In this document: positions 16,698 through 42,385 of the stretch, piece after piece
How the letters are laid out: each line of letters opens with the position of its first letter
Numbering within the stretch: the stretch's first letter is position 1
Assembly: GCA_947601495.1 (NCBI GenBank)
Contig: CANQGE010000005.1
Location: forward strand, 28,255 to 92,254
Direction: 5' to 3'
DNA from: an uncultured Clostridia bacterium
Lineage (GTDB): Bacteria; Bacillota; Clostridia; TANB77; CAG-508
DNA: 64,000 nt
Notes under the pieces: model-generated
Told to the model about the DNA's origin: nothing
The model's database searches: none
Seen by the model: the letters and a program-made list of their open reading frames with translations, nothing else
Program-made: the position numbers and the translations under genes

Positions 16698-16936
16698 CGA
16701 TTCCACTTCTCTACGATAGAAAAAAGAGATATACGCTAGTATATCTCTTCGCTTGGTGGCTTCAAGTGGAATCGCCAAAGGCCGCGCAAGAAAAACAGTC
16801 CACTGGACTGTTTTTAGCTCAGTTTCAGCGTTGTTACTACAACGCTAAAACTGGCTCCTTGCTTTTCGATTCCACTTCTCTACGATAGAAAAAAGAGATA
16901 TACGCTAGTATATCTCTTCGCTTGGTGGCTTCAAGT
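16698..16936. repeat. Duplicated tRNA-Phe 3' tail plus terminator (att remnants)
   Basis: A 70-bp unit occurs identically at 16698-16767 and 16867-16936. On the minus strand it reads as the tRNA-Phe 3' end (ACTTGAAGCCACCA), a spacer, and the hairpin AGAGATATAC/GTATATCTCT followed by T6. That is the chromosomal tRNA tail with its terminator. The 99 bases between hold two further hairpins (CAGTTTTAGCGTTGT arms; AACAGTCC arms). The right copy ends in the prophage attL core. No protein-coding gene is credible in 16646-17021. Confidence 0.8.
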
Positions 16937-17021
16937 AATTCAATTTATACTCTTTTAGCTACCATTAAAGCGTTTCATCTCTTAACTACTATAATTTAAT
17001 GTAATTTTAATGTAATTTTAA

Positions 17022-17150
17022 TTATCTTTTTATTATTTTCTTTGCCTTTTTTACTGTTTTATTTATTATATAATAATATTTTTTTCTTTTCAAGCATAAA
17101 ATTTTTATTTCTTCAGTAGTAAATATTATATTTAATTTATTTTTCTTCAT
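17022..17150 (-). CDS. Small lysine-rich protein near attL
   Basis: A 42-aa ORF (MKKNKLNIIFTTEEIKI... ending KAKKIIKR) has a strong GGGAGG ribosome site eight bases before the ATG. It is very basic. Its stop overlaps the TTAATGTAATTT arm-site cluster beside the attachment core. I cannot assign a family. A nucleic-acid-binding accessory such as an excision factor is possible but unproven. Confidence 0.5.
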   Translation of the reverse strand: MKKNKLNIIFTTEEIKILCLKRKKYYYIINKTVKKAKKIIKR

Positions 17151-17248
17151 AATATAATACCTCCCTGAAATATTTTTTTATTTATATAATACCATATTTT
17201 TTGCAAAAAAATAACTACCTTAGAATTAACTTAGTTATAGTAACATTA

Positions 17249-18004
17249 TTAATAATTTTTAATTAAAATTTCCTTAAATTGTTTTTTCTCATCTAATGCT
17301 GCAGTTAAGTTACTAAATCTTTGTACCTCTTCTATATTATAATCTTTATACAAATTTCTAATATAGTTGCAATCATTGTAACTTAAAAGGAATTTTCCTT
17401 TAACATTTTTTAAAGTATTAAATAATCTTTCATGATCTTCTTCTTTAAAATCTACACTTTTATAATATTTTTCTGTTCCAAAATATGGTGGATCTAAAAA
17501 GAAAAATACATTTTCTCTATCTTGAGTTTTTATTAATTTTTCAAAATCTTCATTTTCAATTATAACAGTATTTAATCTTTTCTGAATTTCATCTAACATT
17601 ATAGTCATATTTTCTACATTTCTTTTTACACATCCATAAGTAGATAACTTGGCTCCATAACTTGTTTTTATTAGCATAAAAAATCTTACTGCCCTTTGAA
17701 TATCAGTTAATCCTCTCATATTATATTGTTCTAAAAAATCTTTGAAAAGCTCTCTAGAATTTAAGAAGTATTGTAATTCTTTTTTTACTTCTCCAGCATG
17801 ATATTTTACGCATTTAAATAAATTTACTAATTCGCTATTATAATCATTATATATTTCTGTTTTTCCTGGTCGTTCTTTATAAAATAATACCCACGCTGCA
17901 CCACCAAACACCTCTACATATTTTTCGTAACTTTCTGGAAATTGTTCACAAATTTTCTCTCTTAATAATTTTTTTCCACCAATCCAACTTAAAAAGCTAT
18001 TCAT
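17249..18004 (-). CDS. DNA adenine methylase (D12 class, Dam-like)
   Basis: This N6-adenine DNA methyltransferase starts with the SAM-binding FLSWIGGKKLL motif. It has YVEVFGGAAWVLFYK and the catalytic DPPY motif in FFLDPPYFGTEKYY near residue 165. The TTG-initiated extension to 18037 is unlikely because a TATAAT-like box overlaps it; AGGAAGGA precedes the ATG at 18004 (251 aa). It sits alone between attL and the lysis module, a typical place for a phage moron. It could protect phage DNA from restriction. The target sequence is not deducible. Confidence 0.88.
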   Translation of the reverse strand: MNSFLSWIGGKKLLREKICEQFPESYEKYVEVFGGAAWVLFYKERPGKTEIYNDYNSELVNLFKCVKYHAGEVKKELQYFLNSRELFKDFLEQYNMRGLTDIQRAVRFFMLIKTSYGAKLSTYGCVKRNVENMTIMLDEIQKRLNTVIIENEDFEKLIKTQDRENVFFFLDPPYFGTEKYYKSVDFKEEDHERLFNTLKNVKGKFLLSYNDCNYIRNLYKDYNIEEVQRFSNLTAALDEKKQFKEILIKNY

Positions 18005-18162
18005 TTTTTCTAATTCCTTCCTATTTGCATTATACAAATAAAATACTATAAATAAAAGATATGTTGAGTTATGTCATTTTAAGCACAGTTACTCTACTAC
18101 ACTTATTTTTAACTACCGTTTTTGATAAAGTAATTTTATAAATTAAAAACGGAGTAAGAAAC

Positions 18163-18363
18163 ATGGTATATTTAAAAGTTGATAAATTATTACAAAAAGA
18201 ACAAAAATCAAAATATTGGTTAGTAAAGAATATGGAAGGAAATTACAGAACAGTCAATAACATGATTGAAAAAGAAACAATTTCTATTCGATTCGACACT
18301 ATTGATAAATTATGTAAAATATTTAATTGTACTCCTGGAGATTTATTTGAAAGAGATTTATAA
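18163..18363 (+). CDS. XRE-family HTH regulator (66 aa)
   Basis: This is a minimal Cro/CI-type helix-turn-helix protein (KYWLVKNMEGNYRTVNNMIEKE, then FDTIDKLCKIFNCTPGDLF). It stands upstream of the MutS-I-like gene with a 24-base gap, so they are one operon running opposite to the phage late genes. An inverted repeat CCGTTTTT/AAAAACGG at about 18116-18150 just before the ATG is a candidate operator for autoregulation. Confidence 0.82.
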   Translation: MVYLKVDKLLQKEQKSKYWLVKNMEGNYRTVNNMIEKETISIRFDTIDKLCKIFNCTPGDLFERDL

Positions 18364-18387
18364 TTAATTAGAAAGGAGTATATACAA

Positions 18388-18789
18388 ATGAGTAAAATTA
18401 TCGAAAAATATAACAGTTTAAAAGAAGAAGATTCACAAAAAATATATTTATTTAAAAACGGAATTTTTTACATCTTTTTAAATGAAGATGCAAAAATAAT
18501 TCATGAAAAACTAGGTTTAAAAATTATTGATTTTGGACTATCTTCAATAAAATGTGGTTTTCCCTCTAATAATTTAGAAAAGTATCTTGATTTATTAGAA
18601 AAACATTCCTTAAATTATCAAATTATTGATGATAATAAAAAAATAGACAATAAAAACGATTACTTAAATAATATCATTTGTAAAGAAATATTAAAAGAAA
18701 TTAAGGAAATAAATATGAATGAAACTACCTTTAAACAAGCATTTGAAAAATTACTTGATTATCAAAACAGAATAAAAAATATTCAATAG
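18388..18789 (+). CDS. Stand-alone MutS domain I-like protein
   Basis: The first about 82 of 133 residues follow the order of MutS domain I, the mismatch-recognition domain. A helix precedes IYLFKNGIFYIF (MutS LFYRMGDFYELF), then LNEDAKIIHEKLGL, a G-P turn, and a helix NNLEKYLDLLEKHSLNYQII (MutS AVENYLAKLVNQGESVAI). The wedge Phe is kept (Phe27) but the Glu of the FxE motif is Ile29. The C-terminal 50 residues are helical and unassigned. It lies 2 kb from the DGR reverse transcriptase; MutS-like accessory proteins have been reported near some DGRs. The homology is by eye. Confidence 0.65.
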   Translation: MSKIIEKYNSLKEEDSQKIYLFKNGIFYIFLNEDAKIIHEKLGLKIIDFGLSSIKCGFPSNNLEKYLDLLEKHSLNYQIIDDNKKIDNKNDYLNNIICKEILKEIKEINMNETTFKQAFEKLLDYQNRIKNIQ

Positions 18790-18809
18790 AGGGATTTCTC
18801 CCTCTATCA

Positions 18810-20189
18810 TTATTTATAATACTTATTATTAATATATCCTTCTCTGCCAGTTTGATTTACTTTTATTCTATCTATATTAGAATTAATATTTTCTAATATA
18901 GTAATAGTAGTGTTAGCAATATATGTATATTTTGTTCCCGTCAAATTACTATTAGAATATATATTACATTTAGTATTTAATTTTTTCCTTTGCCCAACTG
19001 TATTTGGTATTAATATAGTTGAATTATCAATATGTAAAGTCATATTACTTTCTTGACACCAAAATTGCTCACTAAATATTTGAACTACATAATTTTTTCC
19101 GCCAGCATAAGCAATTGTTCCCAAGCCATATACTCTACTATCATTTGTTAATATAGATTTATGTATCCAGAATTGTGAATTTTGAGTACCTCGTAAATCA
19201 TCAACCAACGCATAATTACCTGAATAACATGCTATTCCTACTGGAATATCCACTAAAACTCTTTGACCTGCAGAATACTTTGAGTGATTTGTGTTCTGAT
19301 AGCAAAAGAATTGTTTATAATTTGCATATTTTTTAAAATTATCTATACTACAATAAATAGTATTTCCTGACACTTCTACTTTTCCTCTTCTAGTAGAAGT
19401 ATCAAATTTTCCATTATATAAATATGGATCATAAATTTTTAAAGTATTTTCTTCAATTCCGATAAGAACGATATAATGTCCTCCCGTTGTGAATAATCCA
19501 TTTCCAACTGAGCAAATAACATAGTTATTATTTTTTAATAAATCAAGTGCTTTTTGTATATCTGATGTTTCTGTATAACCAATATTAAATTCATCTGCAA
19601 TAGCTCTATAAGCACTCCAATATGTGCCATTGTTTGCACTTCTATATCCATACTTAACAAATAAACTTGACATTGTATCTGGTGTTATTGTTCCTTTGAT
19701 AGAACTTACAACCATTGCTGCAGATGTCGGTCCACAACCACTAGAACCTATTGTTTGACTTCCATCTCCCACAGATGAATATATAATATTTTTCCATCTA
19801 GTATCAATTTGTGAATAATATGTTAGTCCTTGATAATTTCCTAATTCTACATTCCAAGATCTTGCTCTATCTCCTTCATAGGCTATTTCTCCTTGAAGTT
19901 CAAAAGATTCATCTTCAAGTTCTTCCTCTTCAAGCAATTCTTCATCTTCTATTGTAATATTAATATCTTCTATTGTATTTTCCGTCGATGAATTTTCTTG
20001 ATTTTCTGTTATATCTTGAACAATAACATTTTCGTCTATTTTTTCTATTTCATTTTCTACTATATTTTGAACTTCTTTAACTGTATTGTTAATTTCATTA
20101 TCTGGGAAATAAATTCCGCATAATGTTCCAACTACAGCCAAAACACAAGCTAAAATTATCAATAAAGTTCTTTTAGTTTCTTTTTTCAT
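18810..20189 (-). CDS. Membrane-anchored C39-like peptidase, probable endolysin
   Basis: The 459-aa protein has an N-terminal hydrophobic helix (8-27), an acidic linker (about 35-100), and a papain-like C39_2 domain. That domain has Cys152 in SSGCGPTSAAMVV and His238 in TTGGHYIVLIG, with a following DPY motif as the likely third catalytic residue. The C-terminal 150 residues look like SH3-type cell-wall binding repeats (YSNSNLTGTKYTYIAN...). It directly follows a holin-like gene, so it is the lysis enzyme. The uncleaved-looking anchor suggests signal-anchor-release export. Confidence 0.78.
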   Translation of the reverse strand: MKKETKRTLLIILACVLAVVGTLCGIYFPDNEINNTVKEVQNIVENEIEKIDENVIVQDITENQENSSTENTIEDINITIEDEELLEEEELEDESFELQGEIAYEGDRARSWNVELGNYQGLTYYSQIDTRWKNIIYSSVGDGSQTIGSSGCGPTSAAMVVSSIKGTITPDTMSSLFVKYGYRSANNGTYWSAYRAIADEFNIGYTETSDIQKALDLLKNNNYVICSVGNGLFTTGGHYIVLIGIEENTLKIYDPYLYNGKFDTSTRRGKVEVSGNTIYCSIDNFKKYANYKQFFCYQNTNHSKYSAGQRVLVDIPVGIACYSGNYALVDDLRGTQNSQFWIHKSILTNDSRVYGLGTIAYAGGKNYVVQIFSEQFWCQESNMTLHIDNSTILIPNTVGQRKKLNTKCNIYSNSNLTGTKYTYIANTTITILENINSNIDRIKVNQTGREGYINNKYYK

Positions 20190-20190
20190 A

Positions 20191-20532
20191 CTATTTTTTC
20201 TCCTTTCGATTTAATTCTTTGTATTCTGACTTAATATACTCAATTTCGCTGTCTACATAATGATTTTTAACATGTAATTTATCTACTAAAGTTTCGTATC
20301 TTCCAAAAATATCTAATATTGCTTGAAATTCTTCTCTTGTTTTTAATACACCATTATGCAAGTCTCCAGCAAAATCTACAATTAAATATCTATACTGTCT
20401 TCTATTGTCGTGATAAAGTCCTATTAGTTTCTTATCTAGGCATTTATTTAAAAATCCCGCTAAAATACTTAATAATGTAGACATTGATATTAGTAGTCCT
20501 ACTAAGACCTGAATATTACTTAAATCTTTCAT
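20191..20532 (-). CDS. Holin-like membrane protein
   Basis: From the ATG at 20532 (AAAGGA eight bases before) the protein is 113 aa. One hydrophobic segment near residues 6-26 (VLVGLLISMSTLLSILAGFL) is followed by a charged helical tail. Size, topology and position immediately before the lysin gene fit a holin or holin-accessory role. An earlier in-frame ATG at 20586 lies inside the upstream terminator hairpin and is rejected. Confidence 0.65.
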   Translation of the reverse strand: MKDLSNIQVLVGLLISMSTLLSILAGFLNKCLDKKLIGLYHDNRRQYRYLIVDFAGDLHNGVLKTREEFQAILDIFGRYETLVDKLHVKNHYVDSEIEYIKSEYKELNRKEKK

Positions 20533-20561
20533 CTTTAAATCCTTTCTTTTGAATAAAATAA

Positions 20562-20607
20562 AAGGTTTAAAATTGATTTTTAACAATTTTAAACCTTAGT
20601 TTTTTTA
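20562..20607. terminator. Hairpin between tail/DGR genes and the lysis cassette
   Basis: AAGGTTTAAAATTG pairs perfectly with CAATTTTAAACCTT around an eight-base loop, with T-rich runs on both sides. On the minus strand it would attenuate read-through from the DGR/tail operon into the holin-lysin pair. Confidence 0.7.
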
Positions 20608-20618
20608 TTAATTTTCCC

Positions 20619-20747
20619 TTATTCTTCTACTATTTTATGATATTCTTCTTCAGTTATCCATCCTTTATCAATCGCATTAAAAACCATTGCTTTTGTCCAG
20701 AATCCATCATCATAGTATTTTTTTACCAAATTATATCTCTTGCTCAT
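20619..20747 (-). CDS. XkdX family protein (42 aa)
   Basis: The short ORF begins MSKRYNLVKKYYDDGFWTKA and continues with a V-NAI--GWIT--EY-KI pattern. This matches the XkdX family found after tail-fibre genes in phages and PBSX-like elements. It overlaps the preceding ORF by 17 bases, and GAGGAAA is its ribosome site. Its function is unknown; the family is tail-associated by position. Confidence 0.8.
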   Translation of the reverse strand: MSKRYNLVKKYYDDGFWTKAMVFNAIDKGWITEEEYHKIVEE

Positions 20748-20922
20748 TTTCCTCTATTACCTCACTTTCTTCAATTGGCAAATCTACGCCTGTCATCATT
20801 GCCAAATAATCGGTAGTTGCTTTTCCTCTTGCTATATCTGCTCGCAAATGTTCAAATTCTATTTCTCCTGAAATATCTAAAACTTTATTAACCTTTACAG
20901 ACTTTCCACTTTCTTTTTTCAT
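20731..20922 (-). CDS. Hypothetical phage protein (63 aa)
   Basis: A small acidic protein lies between the reverse transcriptase and XkdX genes, starting six bases after the RT stop. I see no recognisable domain. The phrase IEFEHLRADIARGKATTDYLAMMTGVDLP resembles short tail-tip-associated proteins that precede XkdX in Firmicute phages. Translation is probably coupled to both neighbours. Confidence 0.6.
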   Translation of the reverse strand: MKKESGKSVKVNKVLDISGEIEFEHLRADIARGKATTDYLAMMTGVDLPIEESEVIEENEQEI

Positions 20923-20928
20923 TATATA

Positions 20929-21981
20929 TCACCCCCATAATTCTTTATAAAATTTATCCATTCTCTGCATCAGTTTAAAGCTATTTCCTTTGCTGGCATG
21001 TGCTTTCCAACTTTTATAACACTCATCGACTTTCGACTTCTTCATGTAACCTTTTTTCACTAAATGTGACATTCTAACGAGTTTTCTTTTTTCTCTTTTT
21101 ACTGAATCAGTACATACCAACATAACTATTTTTCCTGTATCAGTTAATCTATGAGTAAATCCTAGAAATTTAATTTCCTTACTTAATTTTAATATTTTTG
21201 TTTTCTTTGGATGTAATTTAAACCCCAATTTATTAAGCTTTTTATCAATTTCTTTTAAACAATATTCTAAGTATTCTAAATTTTCACAAATTATTATAAA
21301 ATCATCCATGTACCTTAAATAGAATTTTATTCTTAAAACTTCTTTTATAAAGTGATCTATTTTGTCTAGTGCTGTTATACCTGCAATTTGAATCATCTGA
21401 CTACCAGGATTATATCCAACATCACCTTCATACTGTTCTGTTAAAACATTATTAGCCATATCAAAAGCCTCTTTAGGTAATTTTTTCCTAAATTGCTCTC
21501 TTATTAATTCATGACTCATATTAGGATAGTAACCTAATATATCCATTTGCAAAACAAATCCTTCATTATTTCCATGCTTTCTATAATATTTCTGCATAAA
21601 AGTATGAAGTCTTTTTCTTGCAAAATCCGTTCCTTTTCCCTTTTGGCAAGCACAATTATCATAAATTAAAGATTTAGTCATTATAGGATAAATTATCTTA
21701 TCATTTAAACTTCTTTGAAAAACTCTATCTCTAAAAGCTATACTTACAGCTTCTCTTTTTTTAGGAGAAGTAAGAGTAAATTTTTTAGGTGGTCTAGGTT
21801 TATATGTTCCTTCTTTTAATTGTTTTTCAAGTTTTAAGCTTTCTTCAATTCCATTTAAATAAAAATGACTTACTGATGTCTTCCAAAGGACATTACTTTT
21901 ACACTTATGCATCGAATCGTATAAAGCATCAAATCCAATTATACTTTCGATTAAATCTTCATTTGTACATTCAATATTCAT
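20929..21981 (-). CDS. DGR reverse transcriptase
   Basis: This is an RNA-directed DNA polymerase of the retroelement type, 350 aa. It has the first catalytic Asp at 147 (LQMDILGYYPNM), a GSQ segment at 193-195 (VGYNPGSQMIQIAG) where DGR enzymes carry their motif 4 SQ, and the active-site YMDD at 224-227. A KTKILKLSKEIKFLGF thumb region follows. No maturase or endonuclease domain is present, as expected for a DGR enzyme. It would copy TR RNA with adenine-directed errors, in complex with Avd. TTGGAG upstream is the ribosome site. Confidence 0.95.
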   Translation of the reverse strand: MNIECTNEDLIESIIGFDALYDSMHKCKSNVLWKTSVSHFYLNGIEESLKLEKQLKEGTYKPRPPKKFTLTSPKKREAVSIAFRDRVFQRSLNDKIIYPIMTKSLIYDNCACQKGKGTDFARKRLHTFMQKYYRKHGNNEGFVLQMDILGYYPNMSHELIREQFRKKLPKEAFDMANNVLTEQYEGDVGYNPGSQMIQIAGITALDKIDHFIKEVLRIKFYLRYMDDFIIICENLEYLEYCLKEIDKKLNKLGFKLHPKKTKILKLSKEIKFLGFTHRLTDTGKIVMLVCTDSVKREKRKLVRMSHLVKKGYMKKSKVDECYKSWKAHASKGNSFKLMQRMDKFYKELWG

Positions 21982-22144
21982 ATTAAAAATTTTTCTCCAA
22001 TGTATATAGCTACTTACTTTATTTAAAAGTACATTGCATCATTAAAGTATTGTTTACCGATTGGCTACGGAAGGATTTCAGCTCCTTGTGTCCTTGTATT
22101 CTAGTGCAACTGCTCTATAAGCAATCCATACGACTATCATTTAT

Positions 22145-22264
22145 ACACAATCAGGGGCAAAACGATTTGCGTTCGTACCGTTGTTGTTGTTGATGTTACC
22201 ACTCGCATTGATGTACCATGTATTATTGCTATTGTTGCGATTAGCTGAACGCAAACGCACTACT
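22145..22264 (-). repeat. DGR template repeat (TR)
   Basis: A 120-base non-coding segment between avd and the RT gene aligns without gaps to the VR. On the coding strand it has 39 adenines, many arranged as AAC/AAT codons in the target's reading frame (NNNN runs), which gives maximal amino-acid choice on mutagenesis. Fourteen adenines differ from VR; none of the 81 other bases does. The remainder of 21982-22281 carries no gene and is presumably the structured RNA around TR. Confidence 0.96.
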
Positions 22265-22281
22265 AATTTATAGCTTACATC

Positions 22282-22698
22282 CTAATTTTTAAATTTTTCA
22301 TATCTTTCGTTATCACTTTTTCCCCATTTTGAAATCATATTTCGTACTTCAAGTATCATTTCTCCCCAATATTTAATTCTTTTACTTTTTAAATGAAAAA
22401 CAGAACCAGCTATTTGAATTGTTGCTAACATATTATTGCATTCCTGGTGTGCTTCTTTTTGAATTCTGTGTCTTAATTTATATGTTTCATTATCTGCAAC
22501 TCTTATACTATTGGCAGTCCAACATTTTATATAAATGTCTTTAGCTGATTTTATTATATCATTTGTTATAGCATTCTGATATTTAGGTTCAAAAATTTTT
22601 TCATTACTACAAATTTGAATTGTATAATGTGCTAATTTTTTTGCCTTTACAAATATTTCTAAATGAGATTGACTTCTTTTTCCTTCAGGTACTGACAT
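22282..22698 (-). CDS. avd: DGR accessory variability determinant (Avd)
   Basis: The 138-aa basic, helical protein fits the Avd/four-helix-bundle family (related in fold to 23S rRNA intervening-sequence proteins): LEIFVKAKKLAHYTIQI, a long middle helix, then LKSKRIKYWGEMILEVRNMISKW. Avd forms a pentamer that binds the reverse transcriptase and nucleic acid and is required for retrohoming in the Bordetella phage system. It starts between the VR hairpin and TR, the standard gene order. Confidence 0.88.
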   Translation of the reverse strand: MSVPEGKRSQSHLEIFVKAKKLAHYTIQICSNEKIFEPKYQNAITNDIIKSAKDIYIKCWTANSIRVADNETYKLRHRIQKEAHQECNNMLATIQIAGSVFHLKSKRIKYWGEMILEVRNMISKWGKSDNERYEKFKN

Positions 22699-22717
22699 TT
22701 TTTCTCCTTTTCTTTTT

Positions 22718-22745
22718 ATTGGGCGAATGCGTGGCTTCGCCCAAT
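22718..22745. promoter_or_regulatory. DGR stem-loop downstream of VR
   Basis: A perfect 10-bp inverted repeat (ATTGGGCGAA and TTCGCCCAAT) closes an 8-base loop. It lies six bases after the target stop codon and 16 bases beyond the end of VR. DGR targets in phages commonly carry such a hairpin or cruciform, which promotes target recognition. On the plus strand it is followed only by TTTT, so a terminator role is secondary. Confidence 0.8.
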
Positions 22746-22751
22746 TTTAGA

Positions 22752-24170
22752 TTAGCAGATGACACAAGCAGGGGCAAAACGACATGCGTACGTACCGTAG
22801 CCGTTGTAGATGCCACCACTCGCATTGATGCACCATGTACTATAGCTATTGTTGCGAGTAGCTGAACGCAAACGCACTACTTGTGCGGATGAATGATTTT
22901 CTACAGCATAGGTAATCATATTAGCATTAGTGCTGCCTTGAGGATTTGGACTTGTTAATCCACTCTTTTGTCTCCAATAATCCCAATATTCGCCTTCTCC
23001 AGATATTTGAGGTACACAATACACTTCTTCTAAAGATGGTAAGAAAAATTTATCGAAAGTATAATCCCAAACTCCAGCTCCACTATCTCTATGATTGTTG
23101 ATAGCAGTTGAAATTTTTACAGCTTTAATTACTGCTAAAAGTTCTGCATCTACACCTTTTAAGAAACCATCTTTACTTGATAATTGATCTGGTTTTCTTG
23201 CAAAAACATCATCGCTTGGATTTGTATACCAATTACCTTTTTCTGCATCACTATTTAAGAATTGCCTTAACGCAGAATTTTTCCATCTATTATGTCCATA
23301 AGAAGCAGAATATAAATTATTGATTGTTGTATTGTACTTTGTTCCTGAGCTTAAAGTTCCTAAAGATGTTCCACTAGGCGTTTCATCTGTATATTCTTCT
23401 AAAGGTATTATTTCAAGTGGTGTTTGACTATCGTTACTTATATATGTTCTTACTCTCCAATTTGATGGATTTGTATCAGGCATTCCACTTGTTTCAGTAG
23501 TTTCCTTACCTATTTGAAGTTGTCCACCAGCTGGTACTTCTTGCGTAGTAGTAAATTTATATTTATAACCACCATGACAATTATTACCCCAATTTCCACC
23601 GATTTCAAAATAATAATCTCCTGCTGGCAATGCTTCTTTACAAACATAAAATGCTTGATTTTGAGTAAATTGAACTCCAAACGGAGATGCATAATGCCAT
23701 TGTAAAATCATTCCAGGAACTTCTCTTTCAACTCCATCTTCTTCTATAGTAACCTTTCTAAAAGCTACTACATCTAGCGGCACTTCATATTCTTTATTTG
23801 CTTGAGTATCTTTCCAAGTAGTAATTAGTTGATCTCCAATATTAAAATACTTTTCTGCCATTCCTGCTTTTACTATATCACTAATGTTTTTCCAAGTTAA
23901 GTTGCTAGAGTTACCTTCTAATAATGATACTCGTATATCTAATTCTTCTGCCTTTTTTTCTAATTTTAGCACTCTAGATGTACTTTTTGAATTATCTATG
24001 AATAATTTATAATAATCTGTATTTGTTGGAAGAGTTCCAGCAGGTGCATCTTTTTTTGCAATATATGTATTATAATCCTCTTCATATACAACTACAGATA
24101 ATTTAGAATATGCAATATTTGATTTCCAAGCTCCTTCATATACTGGAGCTATTCTTATTTGTGTGCTCAT
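22752..24170 (-). CDS. DGR target: variable receptor-binding tail protein
   Basis: The 472-aa protein has an N-terminal tail-attachment-like segment (MSTQIRIAPVYEGAWKS... AYSKLSVVVY), a coiled stretch near 80-100, and a C-terminal domain of the DUF6273/formylglycine-enzyme-like C-type lectin kind (NRWKNSALRQFLNS, FDKFFLPSLEEVY, VVRLRSATR). The final 41 residues (430-470) are the VR. Eleven residues differ from the TR-encoded version: 438, 443, 444, 447, 453, 455, 457, 458, 461, 463 and 468, nine of them Asn in TR. It is preceded by baseplate genes, so it is the probable host-binding tip. Confidence 0.92.
   Translation of the reverse strand: MSTQIRIAPVYEGAWKSNIAYSKLSVVVYEEDYNTYIAKKDAPAGTLPTNTDYYKLFIDNSKSTSRVLKLEKKAEELDIRVSLLEGNSSNLTWKNISDIVKAGMAEKYFNIGDQLITTWKDTQANKEYEVPLDVVAFRKVTIEEDGVEREVPGMILQWHYASPFGVQFTQNQAFYVCKEALPAGDYYFEIGGNWGNNCHGGYKYKFTTTQEVPAGGQLQIGKETTETSGMPDTNPSNWRVRTYISNDSQTPLEIIPLEEYTDETPSGTSLGTLSSGTKYNTTINNLYSASYGHNRWKNSALRQFLNSDAEKGNWYTNPSDDVFARKPDQLSSKDGFLKGVDAELLAVIKAVKISTAINNHRDSGAGVWDYTFDKFFLPSLEEVYCVPQISGEGEYWDYWRQKSGLTSPNPQGSTNANMITYAVENHSSAQVVRLRSATRNNSYSTWCINASGGIYNGYGTYACRFAPACVIC
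22762..22881 (-). repeat. DGR variable repeat (VR)
   Basis: A 120-base ungapped homologue of TR (offset 617) ends the target gene. Mismatches to TR are at 22768, 22783, 22784, 22790, 22799, 22801, 22802, 22808, 22813, 22814, 22831, 22840, 22844 and 22858. All are coding-strand A in TR: seven A to G, five A to T, two A to C. The unvaried 14 bases at 22769-22782 are the likely initiation-of-homology region. Confidence 0.97.
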
Positions 24171-24180
24171 TTTTTCCTCC

Positions 24181-24507
24181 TTAAAAATCTATTATTAAAT
24201 TGAACTCATCATCAATAGATACATTAATGTTTTTTGAATTTTCAACAACCAATTCAAAATTATCATTAACATATACATTTAATAGTTCTGTACTACCATT
24301 CTTTACTTGAATTTCTTTTGTAGTACCATCTTGATATATAATTTTATAATAATCTATGAGACCTTCTGTTTTTATACTTTCAATATCTTTTACTCTTTTT
24401 AACTTATCAATTCCTTCAGTTAATTCTTTTGTATAACTATCTAATTCAACTGCATCTTCACTTTCATAATATGGTAATCCACTTTCCGTTTTTTTCATAC
24501 TAACCAC
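24181..24507 (-). CDS. Hypothetical tail-region protein (108 aa)
   Basis: An acidic protein without a family I recognise sits between tail-fibre genes. It has a helical centre (ELTEGIDKLKRVKDI) and two short beta-like repeats at the end (TELLNVYVNDNFELVVEN; INVSIDDEFNLIIDF). Its start overlaps the upstream gene by eight bases and the DGR target starts ten bases after its stop, so it belongs to the same operon. It may be a fibre adaptor or chaperone. Confidence 0.6.
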   Translation of the reverse strand: MVSMKKTESGLPYYESEDAVELDSYTKELTEGIDKLKRVKDIESIKTEGLIDYYKIIYQDGTTKEIQVKNGSTELLNVYVNDNFELVVENSKNINVSIDDEFNLIIDF

Positions 24508-24691
24508 CTCTCAATTCTTTTACTGTAAATTTTTTTAATTGATTTACAGTATAAGGCTTTAATTCCTCTACTGTTAAATATCTTGTGCATTTTATTTTTA
24601 TTTTAAATTTATCTTTTTTAAAAACTTGAGTTGGTTCGAAAATAATATCTGTTATTTTATTTTTTATAGCCATTAAGCAACCCTCTTCCAA
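24500..24691 (-). CDS. Hypothetical tail-region protein (63 aa)
   Basis: A small basic protein overlaps the tail-fibre gene upstream by 19 bases and the next gene by eight. The C-terminal half contains three similar phrases (YLTVEEL, PYTVNQLKKF, FTVKELRGG), a short internal repeat common in small proteins of Firmicute tail-fibre operons. Its function is unknown. Confidence 0.6.
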   Translation of the reverse strand: MEEGCLMAIKNKITDIIFEPTQVFKKDKFKIKIKCTRYLTVEELKPYTVNQLKKFTVKELRGG

Positions 24692-25632
24692 TAAACTCCT
24701 ACATGAGATGGCTGATAAGTATTTACCCTATGTGTATGTTCATTAAGAGTGTGCACATGTCCTTTACCGCCTCCTATTGAACCAGTACTTTTTGAAGATG
24801 AAGTATTAGAGGCAACACCAGAACCATTAAATGTTCTATCAAAATTATATGCCATCGAACCCGTATCGTCAGCATAAGGATGAGAATGAGAAGGAATTTG
24901 ATCTATAGTTAAGGTTGTTGAACCTGTATTTCCAGTAGCCTTTTCTGATGTTATAAACTTGCTACCAACAGAACTCCCAATTGTTTTAAAGTCGCCATCA
25001 TCTTGTCCAACTAAAGTTTCTCCTATTGCGATTTTTTGCCATGTGCCACCTAATTCTTTATTTGGATCCGCATCACTATCAAAAAATATTACTATTCCTA
25101 CAGGATATGGGGCAAGTTTACATTTTTTTATAATTTCGCTCTCATTTACAATGGCATCTAACTTATCTTGAATAGTTTTATATATAGATTCATAATCTAT
25201 GTATTCTACTAAACTTGTAAAATCACTTACTTTTCCATTAGTAATTTTAAATTGAGCAAAAGGAAATTGATAAATTACCCCACCATCTGTTAAATCTTCT
25301 TGTGTTAATGTAGGATATGCAGTTGATGATTTTATTATTTTTACAGAGACTTGATTTAATTCTGTATCAGTATTTTCTTTTGACAAATCAATTTCACATA
25401 TTAATTTACAGTAAGCTGTGTCTGTATCAACATTTTTTGTTTCAGTTCCGATTATCTGTATAGGTCTTCCTTTTACCCAAAAATAACCTTCACCTACAGA
25501 GACTGTTGAACTTGTATTAGAAACTTGGCAACCTTTAATTACCCCACTTTTTTTATTTAAAACAAAATCCATAAACAACGCAAAAGCATCATTCGAAAAA
25601 ATTTGATTTTGAAATACATGACCTCGTATCAT
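24673..25632 (-). CDS. Tail fibre / baseplate protein
   Basis: This 319-aa protein resembles tail-collar and fibre proteins. It has an N-terminal baseplate-attachment region (GHVFQNQIFSNDAFALFMDFVLN), a central PVGIVIFFDSDADPNKELGGTWQKI segment like that of collar-fibre proteins, and a C-terminal Gly/Ser/His-rich end (IPSHSHPY, GGGKGHVHTLNEHTH) typical of metal-binding fibre tips. The gene starts one base after the preceding stop. No VR-like sequence is present, so it is not a second DGR target. Confidence 0.75.
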   Translation of the reverse strand: MIRGHVFQNQIFSNDAFALFMDFVLNKKSGVIKGCQVSNTSSTVSVGEGYFWVKGRPIQIIGTETKNVDTDTAYCKLICEIDLSKENTDTELNQVSVKIIKSSTAYPTLTQEDLTDGGVIYQFPFAQFKITNGKVSDFTSLVEYIDYESIYKTIQDKLDAIVNESEIIKKCKLAPYPVGIVIFFDSDADPNKELGGTWQKIAIGETLVGQDDGDFKTIGSSVGSKFITSEKATGNTGSTTLTIDQIPSHSHPYADDTGSMAYNFDRTFNGSGVASNTSSSKSTGSIGGGKGHVHTLNEHTHRVNTYQPSHVGVYWKRVA

Positions 25633-25633
25633 T

Positions 25634-26893
25634 TTATTGCTCCTTTCTAAGTTTTTTTACAATTGTATCTATAAAATCAATTCTCATATTTCCACAAGTA
25701 ATCTTTAAGAATTTATCTCCAGTATCTTCTATAGCTGAAACATAAGTATCATAAATTATATTATTATTTGTTTTTATAGAAATAGGAGTACCAATTTTAA
25801 TATTTTCAATATCAAATAAATCAGTATCTCTTCTTAAATTAAAACTAATATTATGATTATAGATGTTTCCTTTAAATATATCTAAAGCTGTTTGTCTAGC
25901 ATCTTCTGAGTTTGCTGTATAAGTAGTTTCAATTAATCCTATTGCCCTATCAGGATCATTAATATCATCTGTCACAGTTCTATTACTTTTTAAATAAAAT
26001 GCTTGTACATCTGTATCCGTTTTTACTACCACTTTTGCAGTAATAGAAGTTTCAAAAACTTCTTTGTAATTACTTACATCTGAAACTGTCGTATCTATTA
26101 ATTTAATATCTGTATCTGTAGATTTATATATATTTATAATTAGGATTTGTCCTTCTAATATGTAATCCATAATAATATTGTAGTTTTGAGTACAATTAGT
26201 TATAAAAGTATGAAAATTAAAAATTCCAAATTCATCTGTATCAACACTTTTTTGAAGTTTTGTGTGAGTCTTTACATTAACTTTTAAATATTTATAATTT
26301 AAAAGTTTATCATCTGAATTTGTGAATTCATTATAAATAGTTTGTTCTATAAAATCTTCTATACCTTTTTGACTGATTATTTCTTCATTGTTTAATATTA
26401 TTTTTCTATCAAATATATTACTTATATATTTTAATGTAATTTTATATACTCTATTATATATTTCATTTGTTTTAGAATTCGTTATATTGCTAATTATTCC
26501 TAAATATGAAGTATTTCTTCTTTTTATAAATATTTTATCTCCATTAACAGCATTCGGTATATCAATAACATTAATATAAGAATTTGCATTTGTTTCTTCA
26601 TCAAGTTTAAAATTATAGTTATCATTAAATTCTTTTACATCTTTAATTTCCAATGTATCTTTATCTAAAATATAAGCGATATTGTAATAATTAATATTAG
26701 TTTTTACTTGTTTTTCAAGAACTTGTAGTTTCTTACTATTTTCATAAGAATGATCTAACAAATCAATAAAATTTGCATTTACTTCATATACTCCACCAAT
26801 TTCAGGTGCTTCAACTTCAATTTCATAATATCCAGACTGAGAATTATATTTTAACTCATAAACTTTATTATTTAAAATAATAGTAGTCTTCAT
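25634..26893 (-). CDS. Tail-tip (Tal/Gp37-like) protein
   Basis: The 419-aa protein follows the distal-tail gene and has the layout of siphovirus Gp37-like or tail-associated proteins: a short N-terminal beta domain, a helical link, then a large beta-rich body (VNGDKIFIKRRNTSYLGIIS, and KIGTPISIKTNNNIIYDTYVSAIEDTGDK near the end). No peptidase motif is evident. It would connect the baseplate hub to the fibres. The assignment rests on order and general pattern. Confidence 0.65.
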   Translation of the reverse strand: MKTTIILNNKVYELKYNSQSGYYEIEVEAPEIGGVYEVNANFIDLLDHSYENSKKLQVLEKQVKTNINYYNIAYILDKDTLEIKDVKEFNDNYNFKLDEETNANSYINVIDIPNAVNGDKIFIKRRNTSYLGIISNITNSKTNEIYNRVYKITLKYISNIFDRKIILNNEEIISQKGIEDFIEQTIYNEFTNSDDKLLNYKYLKVNVKTHTKLQKSVDTDEFGIFNFHTFITNCTQNYNIIMDYILEGQILIINIYKSTDTDIKLIDTTVSDVSNYKEVFETSITAKVVVKTDTDVQAFYLKSNRTVTDDINDPDRAIGLIETTYTANSEDARQTALDIFKGNIYNHNISFNLRRDTDLFDIENIKIGTPISIKTNNNIIYDTYVSAIEDTGDKFLKITCGNMRIDFIDTIVKKLRKEQ

Positions 26894-26903
26894 TTAAAAC
26901 CTC

Positions 26904-27773
26904 CTATACGGTTTTATAAAATTCTATAATTGAAATTCTTGCATTTTGAATATCATTATCCGCATGAATTTGAAGTTTAGAAGTTCCTATAGGTAATTTA
27001 AAAAGATTGACATTTCCAACATCAACATAAGGATTTTTAAATAAATTTTCATAAGTTCCATCTGTATTTTGCTTTTTAATATATAAATTTCCGTCTTTAC
27101 TTGAAAATAAGAATTTCTCGTATTCTTGAATTTCTATTTCAATTTTTAATTCATTTATAATTTGATCATCTTGATAAACAGTAATTGTTGGATTTTTAAT
27201 GTAACCATCCATAGAAACTTGAATAGCTGATTCTGTATGACCTTTATTTTCATAAATAATATTTTTATTATCATAATCAATAAACATACTATCCCATTTA
27301 AAATCCCATCTTACTTCTCCATCAGTAGAAATAAGAGAAATAATAACATCTTCTTTTTTATACCATAAAGATTTAGTTTTTAATTTTATAGGACATGCTA
27401 ATATATTAAAATCATCTTCTTCTGATTTACCTATCTTAATAAAATCTATATCTCTATAATATTCTATTCTATTCTTTAGTTTAGGAACATAAATAAGTTT
27501 TAATTCTTTTGCATTATATACAAAATTAGAAAATTTTTGATATTCATCATAAGTTTCCTCATCAAACTCTAATGTTCCTGTAATTGTATTTTGAACCATT
27601 TTTTTACTCGTTGGAATAAAAGTATCGCCTATTTGTTCATAATTTATTGTTTCCTCATAACCTAATCCATCTATATCATATAAAAATAAATGGCCATTTA
27701 TTTCTTGGAAATCAATTCTAGAACCATTTTCATTTTCAAGATAAAAATTTCTTATATCTTCATATCTATACAA
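26904..27773 (-). CDS. Distal tail (Dit-like) protein
   Basis: A 289-aa phage tail-family protein starts eight bases inside the tape-measure gene end. The beginning (MYRYEDIRNFYLENENGSRID... GYEETINYEQIGDTFIPTSK) and the following ITGTLEFD-ETYDEYQKF are typical of the N-terminal ring-forming domain of Dit-like proteins. The remaining half fits a galectin-like or accessory domain. It forms the hub at the end of the tail tube. Confidence 0.75.
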   Translation of the reverse strand: MYRYEDIRNFYLENENGSRIDFQEINGHLFLYDIDGLGYEETINYEQIGDTFIPTSKKMVQNTITGTLEFDEETYDEYQKFSNFVYNAKELKLIYVPKLKNRIEYYRDIDFIKIGKSEEDDFNILACPIKLKTKSLWYKKEDVIISLISTDGEVRWDFKWDSMFIDYDNKNIIYENKGHTESAIQVSMDGYIKNPTITVYQDDQIINELKIEIEIQEYEKFLFSSKDGNLYIKKQNTDGTYENLFKNPYVDVGNVNLFKLPIGTSKLQIHADNDIQNARISIIEFYKTV

Positions 27774-30700
27774 CTTCAGCCCCCCAATCTTCTCTTATCT
27801 TTTTTGCTGCTCTGTCAATTTCTTCATTAGTCATTTCTTGAGGATAAAAATTGACAACTATGCTTTTTGGTGAAATATTATTAATAATTCCATCATTTAA
27901 ATCAGAATTATTATTCAATAAATCATTAATATTTCCGTTAAGACCTAGTGGTATATTTTCTAAAGAATTTGAAAAAGAATCTAATATTGTTAACCCTAAA
28001 TCTGCAACTTCATTTTCTGCTGCAGATCGCATTTTTGATATTCCTACATTAAATCCTTCAACAAAAAAGCCAGCTATTTCTGCAGTTTCTTTAGATGGAC
28101 TATGAATGCCTAGTACACTCATAAAATTTGATAATAAGCTAGAAGCAAAACTCCTAACAGCACTAAAAGCTCCTGCTTGATTACCTTCAATACCTCTTTG
28201 TACACCATTATCATATTCTTTACCAGCATCAGTACCATCTGACATTTCTAAAAATTTTCTATGTGCTTTGTTTCCCATATCACCAGAAGCTGTTTCTACA
28301 GTTTTATCTGTATCTATAGCATCTCTGATATTAGCTACTGTTATATTAGTATCTGGTGTCATTTCTGAAATATTAGTTAAAAATAATCTTTCAGCTCTAT
28401 CTCCTAAATTTCCTGTTGCCGTTTCCACAGTTTTATTTATTGCTATTGTATTAGTTACTTTTTGTATTTCTGCTGCAGTAGAAGGATCCATTTGATTTAT
28501 AGCTGTACAATATGTGTTATATGAATTGTCTGCAAGAAGTTGCCACATTTCAATTTGTAAAGGACTCAATTCTCCAATTGTAGTGGTCATATTTACTAAA
28601 CTTTCTGCCAGTGCATTTAATTGATTCTCTTCTGATAAAATCTGATTTTGATATATAGTTGCATTTGCTTCATCGCCTTGCCTAATTAAAGTATCATATT
28701 TATTTTGATTTGTTTCGATTTCCATTAATGTAATTTCTATTTGCTTTTGTAATTGTTCTTCTCTAGAAGCTGTTTCAGAACTATATGCTACAATATTTCT
28801 ATTTACTAATTCTTCTAAACTTTCAGTTGTATTTGATTGCATCAATTGTAAATTATATTCATAATTAGCAATATCATCTGCATAACCATTTATTAAATCA
28901 TTTTGTTCTTTAATAGATGCTGATAAAATATCCATCTGCATCTTTGCTTGTACACTTTCTCTTCCACTTGAAGACCAAAATTTAGCATTTGCATCCTTTA
29001 ATTGCTCTTGTAATTCTATTAAATCTTCATACGCTTTAGAACGATTTTGAATTGCTTGAGTATAAGCCTCTTCTTGCTGTTGCATAATAACTTCAGCTTT
29101 TTTCTTTAATATAGTATTATCAATTTCTTGTTGCAAATCTTTATACCCGTTAATAATGTCGCCTGTCATTGATATTTCAATTCCTAAAGCATTTGATAAT
29201 TCTGTAACAATAAACTTAGCTCTTTTTTCATAACCATCTTTTACTTTTCCATTTTCATCTGTTATTTGTTTTAATTCACTATATAAATTCTCTGTATTAG
29301 CAATTTCTGTTAAATTTGCAGATATTTGTTCGTTTTGTTTATCTATTAGAGCTTGTCTTTGATTAACATCATCTTCAATTGCTTTTCTATTATTATTTAG
29401 AGCTATTGTTTCTTTTTCTTCGGCAATACAGAAAGCTGTAACAACTGCTGTTAAACCAACAATACCAGCAACTGCTAAAGTTGTTGGATTAATTAATGAT
29501 GTAATTCCTGTACTTAAAGCCTGAATTTCTGTCGCTCCTGTTGCACTTGCGGAAGATATACTTCCAATTGCACTTGAAAATTTTCCAATTGTACTTATTC
29601 CACCACCAATTGTAGAAACTATACTACCAATTCCAGAAGTTACAGGACCTATTACAATTGCAAGAGCTCCCATTCTAATAATATTACTTTTAGAAACATC
29701 ATCTAATTCATTAAATCGCTTTACAGCACTTTTTAGATTATCTATCAATGGTTCTGCGTTTTCAACTAAAGAATTAATAGCTGGTAATAATTCATCACCC
29801 AAACCTATTGCCATTGTCTGAAAACTATTCTTTAATTTTTTAATTTGGGATTCTGTTGTACCATATCTCTTATTGGCTTCATTTGTTAAAGCTATGTTTT
29901 CTTCAAAAGCACTTGTACCAGTTTCAATAGCTTTATTAAATAAATCTCCAGCATTAGCTGCCCTCAATAAAGAATCTCTTAATCTAACTTCTGTCAATCC
30001 CATTTCTGTTAACATAGAGATTGCACTTTCTCCTTTATTTTCAGCATTTCCTAATCCTTGTATAAAAGCACTTAAAGCACCTGCAGCATCTTTTCCCCAT
30101 GCCTCTTGAAATTCTTTTGCACTCATTCCTGATATTTCTGCAAAATCTTCCAAATTAGTTCCAGCAGTTATTAAATTTTTAACTTCTGTACTTGTCATTC
30201 CTATGCTTTGAGATAATTCTTTAAATCCTTTAGAATCATTAGCAGACATTAACTCAAGACTTCTCAATGACATACCTGTTTTTTGCAATACCTCATTTAG
30301 CTTGGTTCCGCCAAGTTCAACTGCATTTTGCATTTTTACCATTGCTTTTGAAATTGCAGATCCACCCATTTCTGCTTCAATTCCTACAGAACTTAAAGCT
30401 GTTGCTAATCCTAAAATTTGACCTTCTGAAAATCCAACTTGTTCTCCAGCTCCAGCAAGTCTCATTGCCATTTCAACAATATCAGCTTCAGTTGTTGCAA
30501 AATTATTTCCCAAATCAACTATTGCTGAACCTAGTTTGTCGAAATCTTTCTGTGACATTTGAGTTATATTAGCAAACCTTGCTAATTGAGTAGATGCCTC
30601 TTCTGCTGTCAAATTTGTAGAATTTCCTAAATCAATCATTGCTTTTGAAAAATCTAAAATATTGTCTGTTTGTATTCCTAACTGTCCAGCAGCCTCTGCA

Positions 30701-31350
30701 ACTGCTGCAATTTCTGTTGCTGAAGAAGGCACTTCTTCAGATAAATCTAATATACCCTGTCTTAAATTATCTAATTGTTCTGCAGTACCATCAACTGTTT
30801 TTAATACTCCAGTAAATGCAGATTCAAAATCAACTGCAGATTTTGTAACTGCTACAACACCTGCAGTTGCTACTGCACTAAATTTAGATAATGAATTTCC
30901 AACAGAAGTAATTTTATCTCCAATGCCTTCTACTTTTTCTCCAAAGGATTGTAGACTTTTGCCTACAATATTAAAAGTGTTAGACTGAATCGATAATTTA
31001 GAAGTAGTAGTGTTTATTTCATTTGCCAAATTTTGCTGTATAGTTTGTTGATCTAGCAATTTTTTATTAAGATTTTGTGCTTCTGTACTATTTTCCCCAT
31101 ATATTTTAACTGCTTCTTCATATTTCTTTCTAGTGTTTTCTACTACCTTTGTTTGTTCTTCATACTTTGAATTTAATAATTCTAATCTACTCTTTAATGT
31201 TTCTACATTAGTTGAATTTCCATTTAACTGTGCCTGGTTTAATTTTAATTCTGAATTCAATGTTTTAATTAAACCAGTAGATTCTTTTATATTTTTATCA
31301 AATTCATCTGTATTAGCAGAGAATATAATATTCTGTTTTTTAGATCCCAT
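27766..31350 (-). CDS. Tape measure protein (TP901 type)
   Basis: The largest gene of the prophage (1194 aa) sets tail length and is threaded through the tail tube. It has an N-terminal coiled coil (about 20-135), a TP901 core (DFESAFTGVLKTVDGTAEQL, AAAGQLGIQTDNILDF), hydrophobic segments near 560-660, and further coiled coils (750-920). The C-terminal QEMTNEEIDRAAKKIREDWG is usual for the family. It begins just after the frameshifted chaperone stop, with AAGGAGG as ribosome site. Confidence 0.92.
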   Translation of the reverse strand: MGSKKQNIIFSANTDEFDKNIKESTGLIKTLNSELKLNQAQLNGNSTNVETLKSRLELLNSKYEEQTKVVENTRKKYEEAVKIYGENSTEAQNLNKKLLDQQTIQQNLANEINTTTSKLSIQSNTFNIVGKSLQSFGEKVEGIGDKITSVGNSLSKFSAVATAGVVAVTKSAVDFESAFTGVLKTVDGTAEQLDNLRQGILDLSEEVPSSATEIAAVAEAAGQLGIQTDNILDFSKAMIDLGNSTNLTAEEASTQLARFANITQMSQKDFDKLGSAIVDLGNNFATTEADIVEMAMRLAGAGEQVGFSEGQILGLATALSSVGIEAEMGGSAISKAMVKMQNAVELGGTKLNEVLQKTGMSLRSLELMSANDSKGFKELSQSIGMTSTEVKNLITAGTNLEDFAEISGMSAKEFQEAWGKDAAGALSAFIQGLGNAENKGESAISMLTEMGLTEVRLRDSLLRAANAGDLFNKAIETGTSAFEENIALTNEANKRYGTTESQIKKLKNSFQTMAIGLGDELLPAINSLVENAEPLIDNLKSAVKRFNELDDVSKSNIIRMGALAIVIGPVTSGIGSIVSTIGGGISTIGKFSSAIGSISSASATGATEIQALSTGITSLINPTTLAVAGIVGLTAVVTAFCIAEEKETIALNNNRKAIEDDVNQRQALIDKQNEQISANLTEIANTENLYSELKQITDENGKVKDGYEKRAKFIVTELSNALGIEISMTGDIINGYKDLQQEIDNTILKKKAEVIMQQQEEAYTQAIQNRSKAYEDLIELQEQLKDANAKFWSSSGRESVQAKMQMDILSASIKEQNDLINGYADDIANYEYNLQLMQSNTTESLEELVNRNIVAYSSETASREEQLQKQIEITLMEIETNQNKYDTLIRQGDEANATIYQNQILSEENQLNALAESLVNMTTTIGELSPLQIEMWQLLADNSYNTYCTAINQMDPSTAAEIQKVTNTIAINKTVETATGNLGDRAERLFLTNISEMTPDTNITVANIRDAIDTDKTVETASGDMGNKAHRKFLEMSDGTDAGKEYDNGVQRGIEGNQAGAFSAVRSFASSLLSNFMSVLGIHSPSKETAEIAGFFVEGFNVGISKMRSAAENEVADLGLTILDSFSNSLENIPLGLNGNINDLLNNNSDLNDGIINNISPKSIVVNFYPQEMTNEEIDRAAKKIREDWGAEVV

Positions 31351-31353
31351 TGC

Positions 31354-31877
31354 TTATTCCTCCTTTGGATTATTCATGTAATTTTGATAAGCAACTATAT
31401 CAGCATAAATATTCTCCAGAAAGGAAATATCACTATTCCAAAAAGTATCAGGATCAATTTTATTTATATATACAAAAAAGACATACATATCAGCAATCGT
31501 TCTGATATATATGTCTGGTTTTTTGTATCTCTTTCCTTTTTGGTTTTTCTTTTTATTGCTAGTAACTTTCTTAAATCCTTTCTGGAATTCTAGTTTTTTC
31601 TTTTAGTTAATAAATCAACTCCTATACTTGAAATTTGTGCTAACGGAATATCTGAAATTAAATCTAAAAATTCTTCATATTCTATAACAATTTCATTTTT
31701 TACACTTACATACGCAGCATATATAACTTGATAATAATCAGATGCTCTTGGTTCTACATCATGTCCATTTCTTAAAATTCCTAAGATATCAATTTCTTTA
31801 TACTTATTTTCGGTTATATAAATTCCTTTAGGAGTTAATTTTAAATCTATTTCTTCATCTTTGATTTTGATTTTCAT
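31354..31877 (-). CDS. Tail assembly chaperone G-GT, -1 frameshift product
   Basis: The upstream ORF (31590-31877) ends AAA AGA AAA AAC TAG. This contains the canonical slippery heptamer A AAA AAC (31593-31599) in the correct phase, directly before the stop. A -1 shift opens a 79-codon basic extension (KLEFQKGFKKVTSN... ending NNPKEE) that stops at 31354-31356, just before the tape-measure ATG. Phage G/GT chaperones use exactly this layout to make two proteins in a fixed ratio. Confidence 0.88.
31590..31877 (-). CDS. Tail assembly chaperone, short form (gpG-like)
   Basis: The zero-frame product is 95 aa, helical, and lies between the major tail protein and tape-measure genes. This is the position of gpG-like chaperones that coat the tape measure during tail assembly. 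It begins MKIKIKDEEIDLKLTPKGIY. The stop follows the slippery sequence described for the longer form. Confidence 0.82.
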   Translation of the reverse strand: MKIKIKDEEIDLKLTPKGIYITENKYKEIDILGILRNGHDVEPRASDYYQVIYAAYVSVKNEIVIEYEEFLDLISDIPLAQISSIGVDLLTKRKN

Positions 31878-31894
31878 TTTATATATTCCTTTCT

Positions 31895-32449
31895 TTATTC
31901 AGCTTTAACTAAATCTGGTGTAAAGTTTGTAAGCCAAGCCAATTTTGTTTCTTCATCTAATTCATCTTCATAAGCCTCATAATAGAATTTTCTATTTTCA
32001 TCAGCTAATGCAGAAAATTCCATCTCATTCATTTCAATTTCTGTTTGATCATTATCAATATTAATTGTTAATCCTTTAATATCTTCCATATATGGAATTG
32101 CTATATATTTTCTATTTCCATCCATATCAACAACAATTGCTGTAAAACATAACGGATTACTTTTTATATCAGTTCCATAAGCATAAACTCCTGTTTTCAA
32201 ACCTTCAGTAGATAAACCAAATACTTTTCTTTTTGTAGAAACTGTTGCGTGTCCTGTAATTGTGATATTCATTTTAGATACTTTCTTTTTAGATTTGATA
32301 ACTCTTCCTTCTGCTCTTTTTTCAACTTCTTCTACTTCTGGTTCCCCACTCATTGTTCCTAGTGGTCCAAAAGGAATAGCTGTATCTTCTGCACTTTTAA
32401 TTGTTCCTTCTAAGACTTGATAATCTTCAAAATCTTCTCTAATATTCAT
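31895..32449 (-). CDS. Major tail protein
   Basis: This 184-aa protein is the likely tail-tube subunit: an N-terminal acidic arm, then a beta-rich core (MNITITGHATVSTKRKVFGL, TGVYAYGTDIKSNPLCFTAIV, TINIDNDQTEIEMNEMEFSAL). That pattern is common to phi13-type major tail proteins. It is followed by the chaperone genes as expected. A strong GGAGG precedes the ATG. Confidence 0.82.
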   Translation of the reverse strand: MNIREDFEDYQVLEGTIKSAEDTAIPFGPLGTMSGEPEVEEVEKRAEGRVIKSKKKVSKMNITITGHATVSTKRKVFGLSTEGLKTGVYAYGTDIKSNPLCFTAIVVDMDGNRKYIAIPYMEDIKGLTINIDNDQTEIEMNEMEFSALADENRKFYYEAYEDELDEETKLAWLTNFTPDLVKAE

Positions 32450-32467
32450 TTTTCATTCCTCCTTTTA

Positions 32468-33938: not shown

Positions 33939-33979
33939 ATAAGCGCCTCCAAAATTTTAGTTGCGTGTTAATGTATATC

Positions 33980-35137: not shown

Positions 35138-35149
35138 TTTTTTACCCTC

Positions 35150-37107: not shown

Positions 37108-37121
37108 TTATACCCTCCTTT

Positions 37122-39893: not shown

Positions 39894-39899
39894 AAGTCT

Positions 39900-41791: not shown

Positions 41792-41794
41792 TTT

Positions 41795-42349: not shown

Positions 42350-42385
42350 TTAATTTTTCCTCTACTTTCTCTTCAAAATATTGTT

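Follow-up and report, generated by a model that had tools for sequence, protein, structure and literature searches.

The known mechanism of cDNA priming in DGRs was worked out on BPP-1, and Handa et al. are said to have identified in 2018 the priming adenine as number 56 of the BPP-1 spacer. The BPP-1 DGR (AY029185) has the order target, small gene (avd), TR and RT, with VR at the 3' end of a tail protein gene; its repeats differ by adenine changes and by a few differences at their 3' end, and VR is followed by a GC-rich hairpin that is reported to be required for efficient homing (PMC3240598). Its IMH is described as nearly identical to IMH*, and its spacer as a folded RNA that recruits RT-Avd and contains an internal adenine that primes cDNA near the TR end (PMC12875486). 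One report had already predicted that the ~200 nt trailing in DGRs hold a conserved structure (PMC8867640), and another gives more than 30,000 reported DGRs (PMC8144416). The element described here is like that of BPP-1 in its gene order, the place of VR, its adenine changes, the divergence at the repeat ends and the hairpin. It is unlike it in three respects: the several end differences of BPP-1 are mostly reduced to one A/C difference in the present family; the BPP-1 spacer is without AAGGA and goes unrecognised by the covariance model R1 described below; and the two Avd proteins have no BLASTP similarity.

Similar targets are described in the Faecalibacterium phages Roos, Pioen, Lelie and CP11, where VR likewise lies in a phage protein with DUF6273, at the C-terminal end of that domain; these are different phages, however, and two variable regions are reported for Lelie, whereas the source genome of the present element has one (PMC11792537). 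The Lelie spacer also carries AAGGA, 52 nt after TR. In the Tentaclins VR lies in a DUF6273-like C-type lectin domain, as is predicted here, but that domain is described as coming first and being followed by Ig domains (PMC10743442), while VR of the present target is C-terminal and a Pfam scan matched no Ig domain, so that the protein does not have the Tentaclin build of N-terminal lectin followed by Ig domains. Of the viral contigs scanned, the one nearest to the present element is IMG/VR contig 3300037455_000344, with an RT 73% identical, a target 58% identical and an identical end mark, although its TR and VR sequences differ from those studied here.

The window, by which we mean the whole stretch of 64,000 nucleotides that was analysed, comes from an uncultured Clostridia bacterium. 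We are highly confident that it carries a complete phage DGR, with TR and VR differing only at TR adenines; by mutagenic retrohoming the element likely varies the tip of a predicted tail protein, a tip predicted to be C-type-lectin-like. Complete and conventional in its build, this DGR is of a known kind, and what it adds is a conserved spacer motif and an end mark. The cassette runs in the order target, avd, TR, RT, all on the minus strand (Table 1); what is observed directly is this order, a divergence confined to adenines, an end mark that recurs in relatives, a spacer motif conserved among them and an inverted repeat past VR.

Table 1. Positions of the DGR and of its parts in the window.
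Feature	Positions	Strand	Description
Prophage	16753..53284		36.5 kb; bounded by 22-nt copies of the tRNA-Phe 3' end at 16753-16774 and 53263-53284 (most simply)
RT	20929..21981	minus	350 aa, reading frame intact, YMDD present; PF00078 E 1.2e-16; PHROG 1423 E 6.8e-76
Spacer between TR and RT	21982..22144	minus	163 nt; part of the predicted template RNA
Conserved spacer element (R1 match)	22043..22126	minus	E 4.3e-11, the window itself being one of the 40 rows of R1
AAGGA-N8-CC core	22073..22087	minus	contains A 22083, a candidate for the priming adenosine (putative role)
TR	22145..22264	minus	between avd and RT; recovered independently by repeat search
End mark, TR side	22151	minus	A of GAT, followed by six bases to the repeat end
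Avd-family accessory protein	22282..22698	minus	138 aa; PHROG 3206 'Avd protein of DGR' E 2.1e-12
Hairpin	22718..22745		perfect 10-bp inverted repeat with an 8-nt loop, 16 nt past VR
Target gene	22752..24170	minus	472 aa; DUF6273 match at residues 287-456
VR	22762..22881	minus	last codons of the target gene; found by repeat search
End mark, VR side	22768	minus	C of GCT (Ala468)

The initial annotation had paired TR with VR over 120 bases without a gap and placed 14 differences at adenines, and both the repeat search and the coding-strand comparison return that alignment exactly to the base, at 88% identity. Every one of the 14 mismatches found over the 120 minus-strand positions lies at a TR adenine (A>G 7, A>T 5, A>C 2), while none of the 81 non-A positions is changed; the annotated counts of 39 adenines and of each type of change were reproduced on the coding strand. 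For 14 changes placed at random among 120 positions, the probability that each hits one of the 39 A is 2.3e-8. All 14 observed changes lie in the first or second position of a target-gene codon, seven in each; these two positions hold 34 of the 39 adenines, and the protein ends four residues beyond the last difference. No third copy of the repeat occurs in the source genome assembly (1.67 Mb, 32 contigs, 72.7% complete), which contains these two only.

Among solved structures, the best match to the RT by sequence is the BPP-1 DGR RT (8ub7_A, E 1.1e-18), with weaker matches to a maturase (3.6e-10), the GsI-IIC RT (1.1e-4) and retron-type entries (~0.004). The NCBIfam models for a group II intron maturase (80.5 bits vs a cut-off of 300), retron St85 (33.9/235 bits) and Drt3a (42.8/200 bits) are all far from their cut-offs, Rfam gives no intron match at its gathering threshold, and PADLOC returns many weak general RT matches. 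This is the single RVT_1 gene in the source genome assembly. The Avd-family protein is recognised by PHROG 3206 and has no Pfam or NCBIfam match. Profiling the RT against DGR reverse transcriptase families had been suggested in the initial annotation; the RT matches PHROG 1423 and the BPP-1 enzyme and stays far below the group II intron and retron cut-offs, and the reading of the locus as a phage DGR, with RT and Avd adjacent on either side of TR, is borne out by the adenine-only divergence, the DGR-type RT, the Avd-family protein and the prophage setting. The target is predicted to be a tail-tip or receptor-binding protein with a predicted C-type-lectin-like domain.

For comparison we assembled a first set of 102 loci with a related RT or target, drawn from viral contigs and other genomes, of which 75, counting the window, yielded a TR/VR pair with A bias and 27 were dropped; a hold-out of 175 viral loci gave 142 such pairs, with 33 dropped. 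For spacer comparisons, near-identical spacers were removed, which reduced the first set from 75 to 49 loci and the hold-out from 142 to 82, the latter also being cleared of loci resembling the first set. TR/VR mismatches fall at TR adenines in 1025/1067 cases over the 75 loci and in 1964/2037 over the 142, but these figures are no test of adenine restriction, because both sets were kept only at a level of at least 80% A among the mismatches. A fairer measure comes from 22 non-overlapping pairs of loci with near-identical TRs and different VRs (same-template pairs), two of which share one TR cluster (L034-L037), and from which L131/L132 was left out as L009/L010 fetched again: 363/371 of the differences between their VRs lie at TR adenines, which make up ~27% of sites. 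The initial annotation had named VR variation at non-adenine TR positions among related genomes as a result that would speak against it, and by these counts from relatives the family passes that test. Two loci have two variable repeats each that match one template (L013, 3907-4010 and 4963-5066; L042, 1964-2073 and 3212-3321).

One of the 14 differences stands apart. Near the repeat end, TR reads GAT where VR reads GCT, and this end mark is isolated in the window, with 14 unchanged bases preceding it and six following it to the repeat end. VR has C at this site in 34 of the 36 scorable first-set loci, a count that includes near-identical loci, and T in the other two; scoring requires a terminal GA[TC] codon, which leaves 39 of 75 first-set and 34 of 82 hold-out loci unscorable. 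Five more loci, read by hand, also have C, and L007 and L039 among them are the same cassette. The mark is not universal: the 48 scorable hold-out loci comprise 38 with C, six that keep A, three with T and one with G, so that ten are scored as other than A>C, although one of the three scored as A>T (L190) has a printed end that reads C beside a G>A change. Elsewhere in TR changed adenines have become C in 179/959 cases. Twelve of the 22 same-template pairs can be scored in both members, and one of these keeps A in both while 11 have C in both, against 15/608 both-C cases at the other TR adenine sites of such pairs. Because the A/C difference recurs in relatives and stays C in same-template pairs, the end mark is, as far as these comparisons of sequence go, an IMH*/IMH-type difference, here mostly a single base; the repeat ends are otherwise near-identical, as with IMH and IMH*, and the single A/C difference is recurrent in the family. 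In seven loci (L022, L026, L030, L033, L287, L288 and L289) TR already reads GCT, and the repeat ends differ instead one or two bases later, where TR has C and VR has T.

The 14th difference is therefore probably not a record of mutagenesis, and since it is a near-fixed mark of the family we count 13 changes, not 14, as such a record. The initial claim of past mutagenic retrohoming holds for those 13 and probably not for the last; by extension, TR/VR difference counts in this family overstate mutagenesis by one. The mark could alternatively be maintained by selection on the protein, Ala468 being needed at the end of the target, and not by homing that stops before it. That end, PACVI, shows little or no variation across the 50 rows of a homologue alignment (where Ala468 is numbered A467, the first codon being omitted), and if the residue is indeed needed an Asp derived from TR would often be lost. 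Against this, GAT recurs in distant TRs although TR is outside genes, and C is kept in both members of nearly all scorable pairs; yet both patterns are compatible with selection as well. We regard selection as a genuine possibility, if a less probable one; the end mark may instead be a limit to homing.

An inverted repeat just past VR, as looked for in a DGR, is present as a 10-bp stem. No arrangement as good arose in 200 shuffles (0/200), and its DNA fold has a z of -5.2; by a simple test, 30 of the 75 first-set loci have a stem after VR at p <= 0.05. We interpret it as a predicted hairpin/cruciform homing element.

The spacer between TR and RT supplies the second recurrent feature. That of the window aligns with those of its relatives at a core, ACACAAGGAGC, built on the motif AAGGA-N8-CC. 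In 33 of the 49 first-set loci (simple shuffles, mean 2.3, max 8) AAGGA lies 38-66 nt past the TR block, and under a rule fixed beforehand the same holds for 50 of the 82 in the hold-out (dinucleotide shuffles, mean 4.0, max 11), the latter divided between 35/48 with a GA[TC] end to TR and 15/34 without. When loci are anchored on AAGGA without gaps, CC follows eight bases later in 24/33 and 48/50; at no other offset included in the count, from which +12 was excluded, does it exceed 8 and 21. The whole motif at 38-66 nt is thus found in 24/49 and 48/82 non-redundant loci, where the rate elsewhere in the loci would give 0.07 and 0.16, and it is present in over half of the ~130 elements compared. 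Of 99 records with a related RT, four named phages were examined (Shimadzu, nd12, Lelie and VP58.5), and all four have AAGGA 48-54 nt after TR. Rfam has no match at the element, and a description of AAGGA-N8-CC was not found in the literature searched, from which subscription journals were mostly absent, so that this is weak evidence of novelty.

Its position and recurrence suggest that AAGGA-N8-CC is likely the cDNA-priming element. Because its distance from TR is about that in BPP-1, and because the last A of AAGGA can be aligned, by eye only, with A56 of BPP-1 (CAGCCG / GGAGCCG, AAGGAGCCG), we propose that AAGGA would hold the priming adenosine, with the A at 22083 of the window as the candidate. 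A wider claim would be that the motif and its flanking stems, 50-60 nt past TR, form the common priming site of most related phage DGRs, with the last A of AAGGA as primer, and that together with the A/C end mark it defines from sequence where copying starts and homing stops; this may quite conceivably be so, although we advance it tentatively. If the motif does mark the functional spacer in many phage DGRs, priming becomes testable across lineages and the detection of template RNAs is aided. A ribosome-binding site is matched by AAGGAG, and this resemblance would favour a Shine-Dalgarno or other expression signal over a part of the template RNA machinery; but in 17 of 19 measured loci AAGGA precedes the RT match by 72-135 nt, and in the other two by ~250 nt, its distance from TR being the tight one, and it is accompanied by CC eight bases on and by stems on both sides. 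An expression signal is accordingly an improbable explanation, and a role in priming is the one that we retain.

The stems were located by windows picked on the first set, where the best downstream stem starts 10-14 nt past AAGGA, and the best upstream stem ends 14-25 nt before it, in 20/33 loci each (shuffles 5.4 and 9.6). Applied to the hold-out, these windows capture 29/50 downstream (shuffles 8.2, sd 2.5) and 37/50 upstream stems (shuffles 14.6, sd 3.0). Single-locus stems are weak, only 6/34 downstream and 6/34 upstream beating 95% of shuffles, with neither of the window's two among them, and the window spacer folds no better than its shuffles (z -0.9). RNAalifold found five weak pairs on 18 spacers and no structure on a 40-row alignment. 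Six pairs chosen by eye are 80.0% paired vs 72.0% in shuffles (0/500 as high), with a covariation score of 0.158 vs 0.073 in shuffles and 0.162 after a slide of +2. Base pairing in the spacer thus appears only moderately supported, and the sequence motif carries the case. A helix between the TR end and the spacer (CTGATTG or CCGATTG with CAATCGG), seen in the window and its nearest relative, was dropped when 4/51 sequences beat 95% of shuffles (mean p 0.46).

A covariance model of the spacer element, R1, was built from 40 rows picked for AAGGA (10 from the first set, including the window, and 30 from the hold-out) and was then applied to 665 kb from 92 loci that had not gone into it (39 from the first set, 52 from the hold-out, and L002). 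It matches 36 of these at E <= 0.01, once per locus and always between TR and RT, and gives no match in the other 56. All but one of the matches (35/36) start -10 to 120 nt from the end of the TR block; the 36th is that of L002, where VR is at the other end of the contig and the match lies between the TR and RT of that locus, which is counted here although it is a near relative of the window, itself in R1. A match in L041 (10405-10486, E 0.046), beside another intergenic repeat, was judged by eye to be a false positive. On Shimadzu, nd12, Lelie and VP58.5 the model gives two matches below 0.001, one at 0.3 and one phage without a match, and on BPP-1 it gives ten weak matches (best E 0.074), none of them in the spacer.

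For the DGR of the window we infer binding, priming, homing and receptor binding along the following lines. An RNA comprising TR and spacer would be transcribed and then bound by RT and Avd. Synthesis of cDNA would start at the adenosine of the AAGGA-N8-CC element and run back into TR, with the RT misreading template A, and the cDNA would then replace VR up to the end mark, presumably aided by the hairpin after VR. A reading of the element as a fossil, no longer mobile, has in its favour that no second allele of the prophage was found. A search of viral contigs by TR 23-mer returned no other copy, only the relative with an RT 73% identical; a search of phage records by DNA returned none beyond two weak matches, both collections being liable to omit records very near the source genome; and the target protein occurs in one of 53 genomes of the genus, which is the source genome itself. 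The RT, Avd and target frames are nevertheless open, and drift has touched 0/81 non-A positions, so that a fossil is very improbable and we continue to favour a DGR capable of homing.

The cassette is surrounded by phage genes (terminase, portal, protease, major head, tape measure, distal tail (Dit), tail, integrase and repressor). A 22-nt sequence overlapping the 3' end of tRNA-Phe has exact copies at 16753, 53263 and 63664, where none would be expected by chance; from these three copies the prophage is most simply delimited as in Table 1, with a second integrated element in tandem. This second element, 53263-63685, likewise at tRNA-Phe, encodes an integrase (62313-63527), a primase/D5-type protein (59686-61845), a repressor-like protein (58127-59137) and a short integrase-like ORF (53686-54246), and could represent a phage satellite or a small integrative element.

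Several minor features lie at or near the left end of the prophage. A 79-nt direct repeat (95%; 16689-16767 and 16858-16936) adjoins that end, and each of its copies contains part of the attachment core. A 133-aa ORF on the plus strand (18388-18789), standing amid minus-strand prophage genes, has MutS domain I as its sole match. Finally, an acyltransferase ORF (15467-16645) has a run of ATACA repeats (15492-15581) close to its start and could be phase-variable by slippage in the run.
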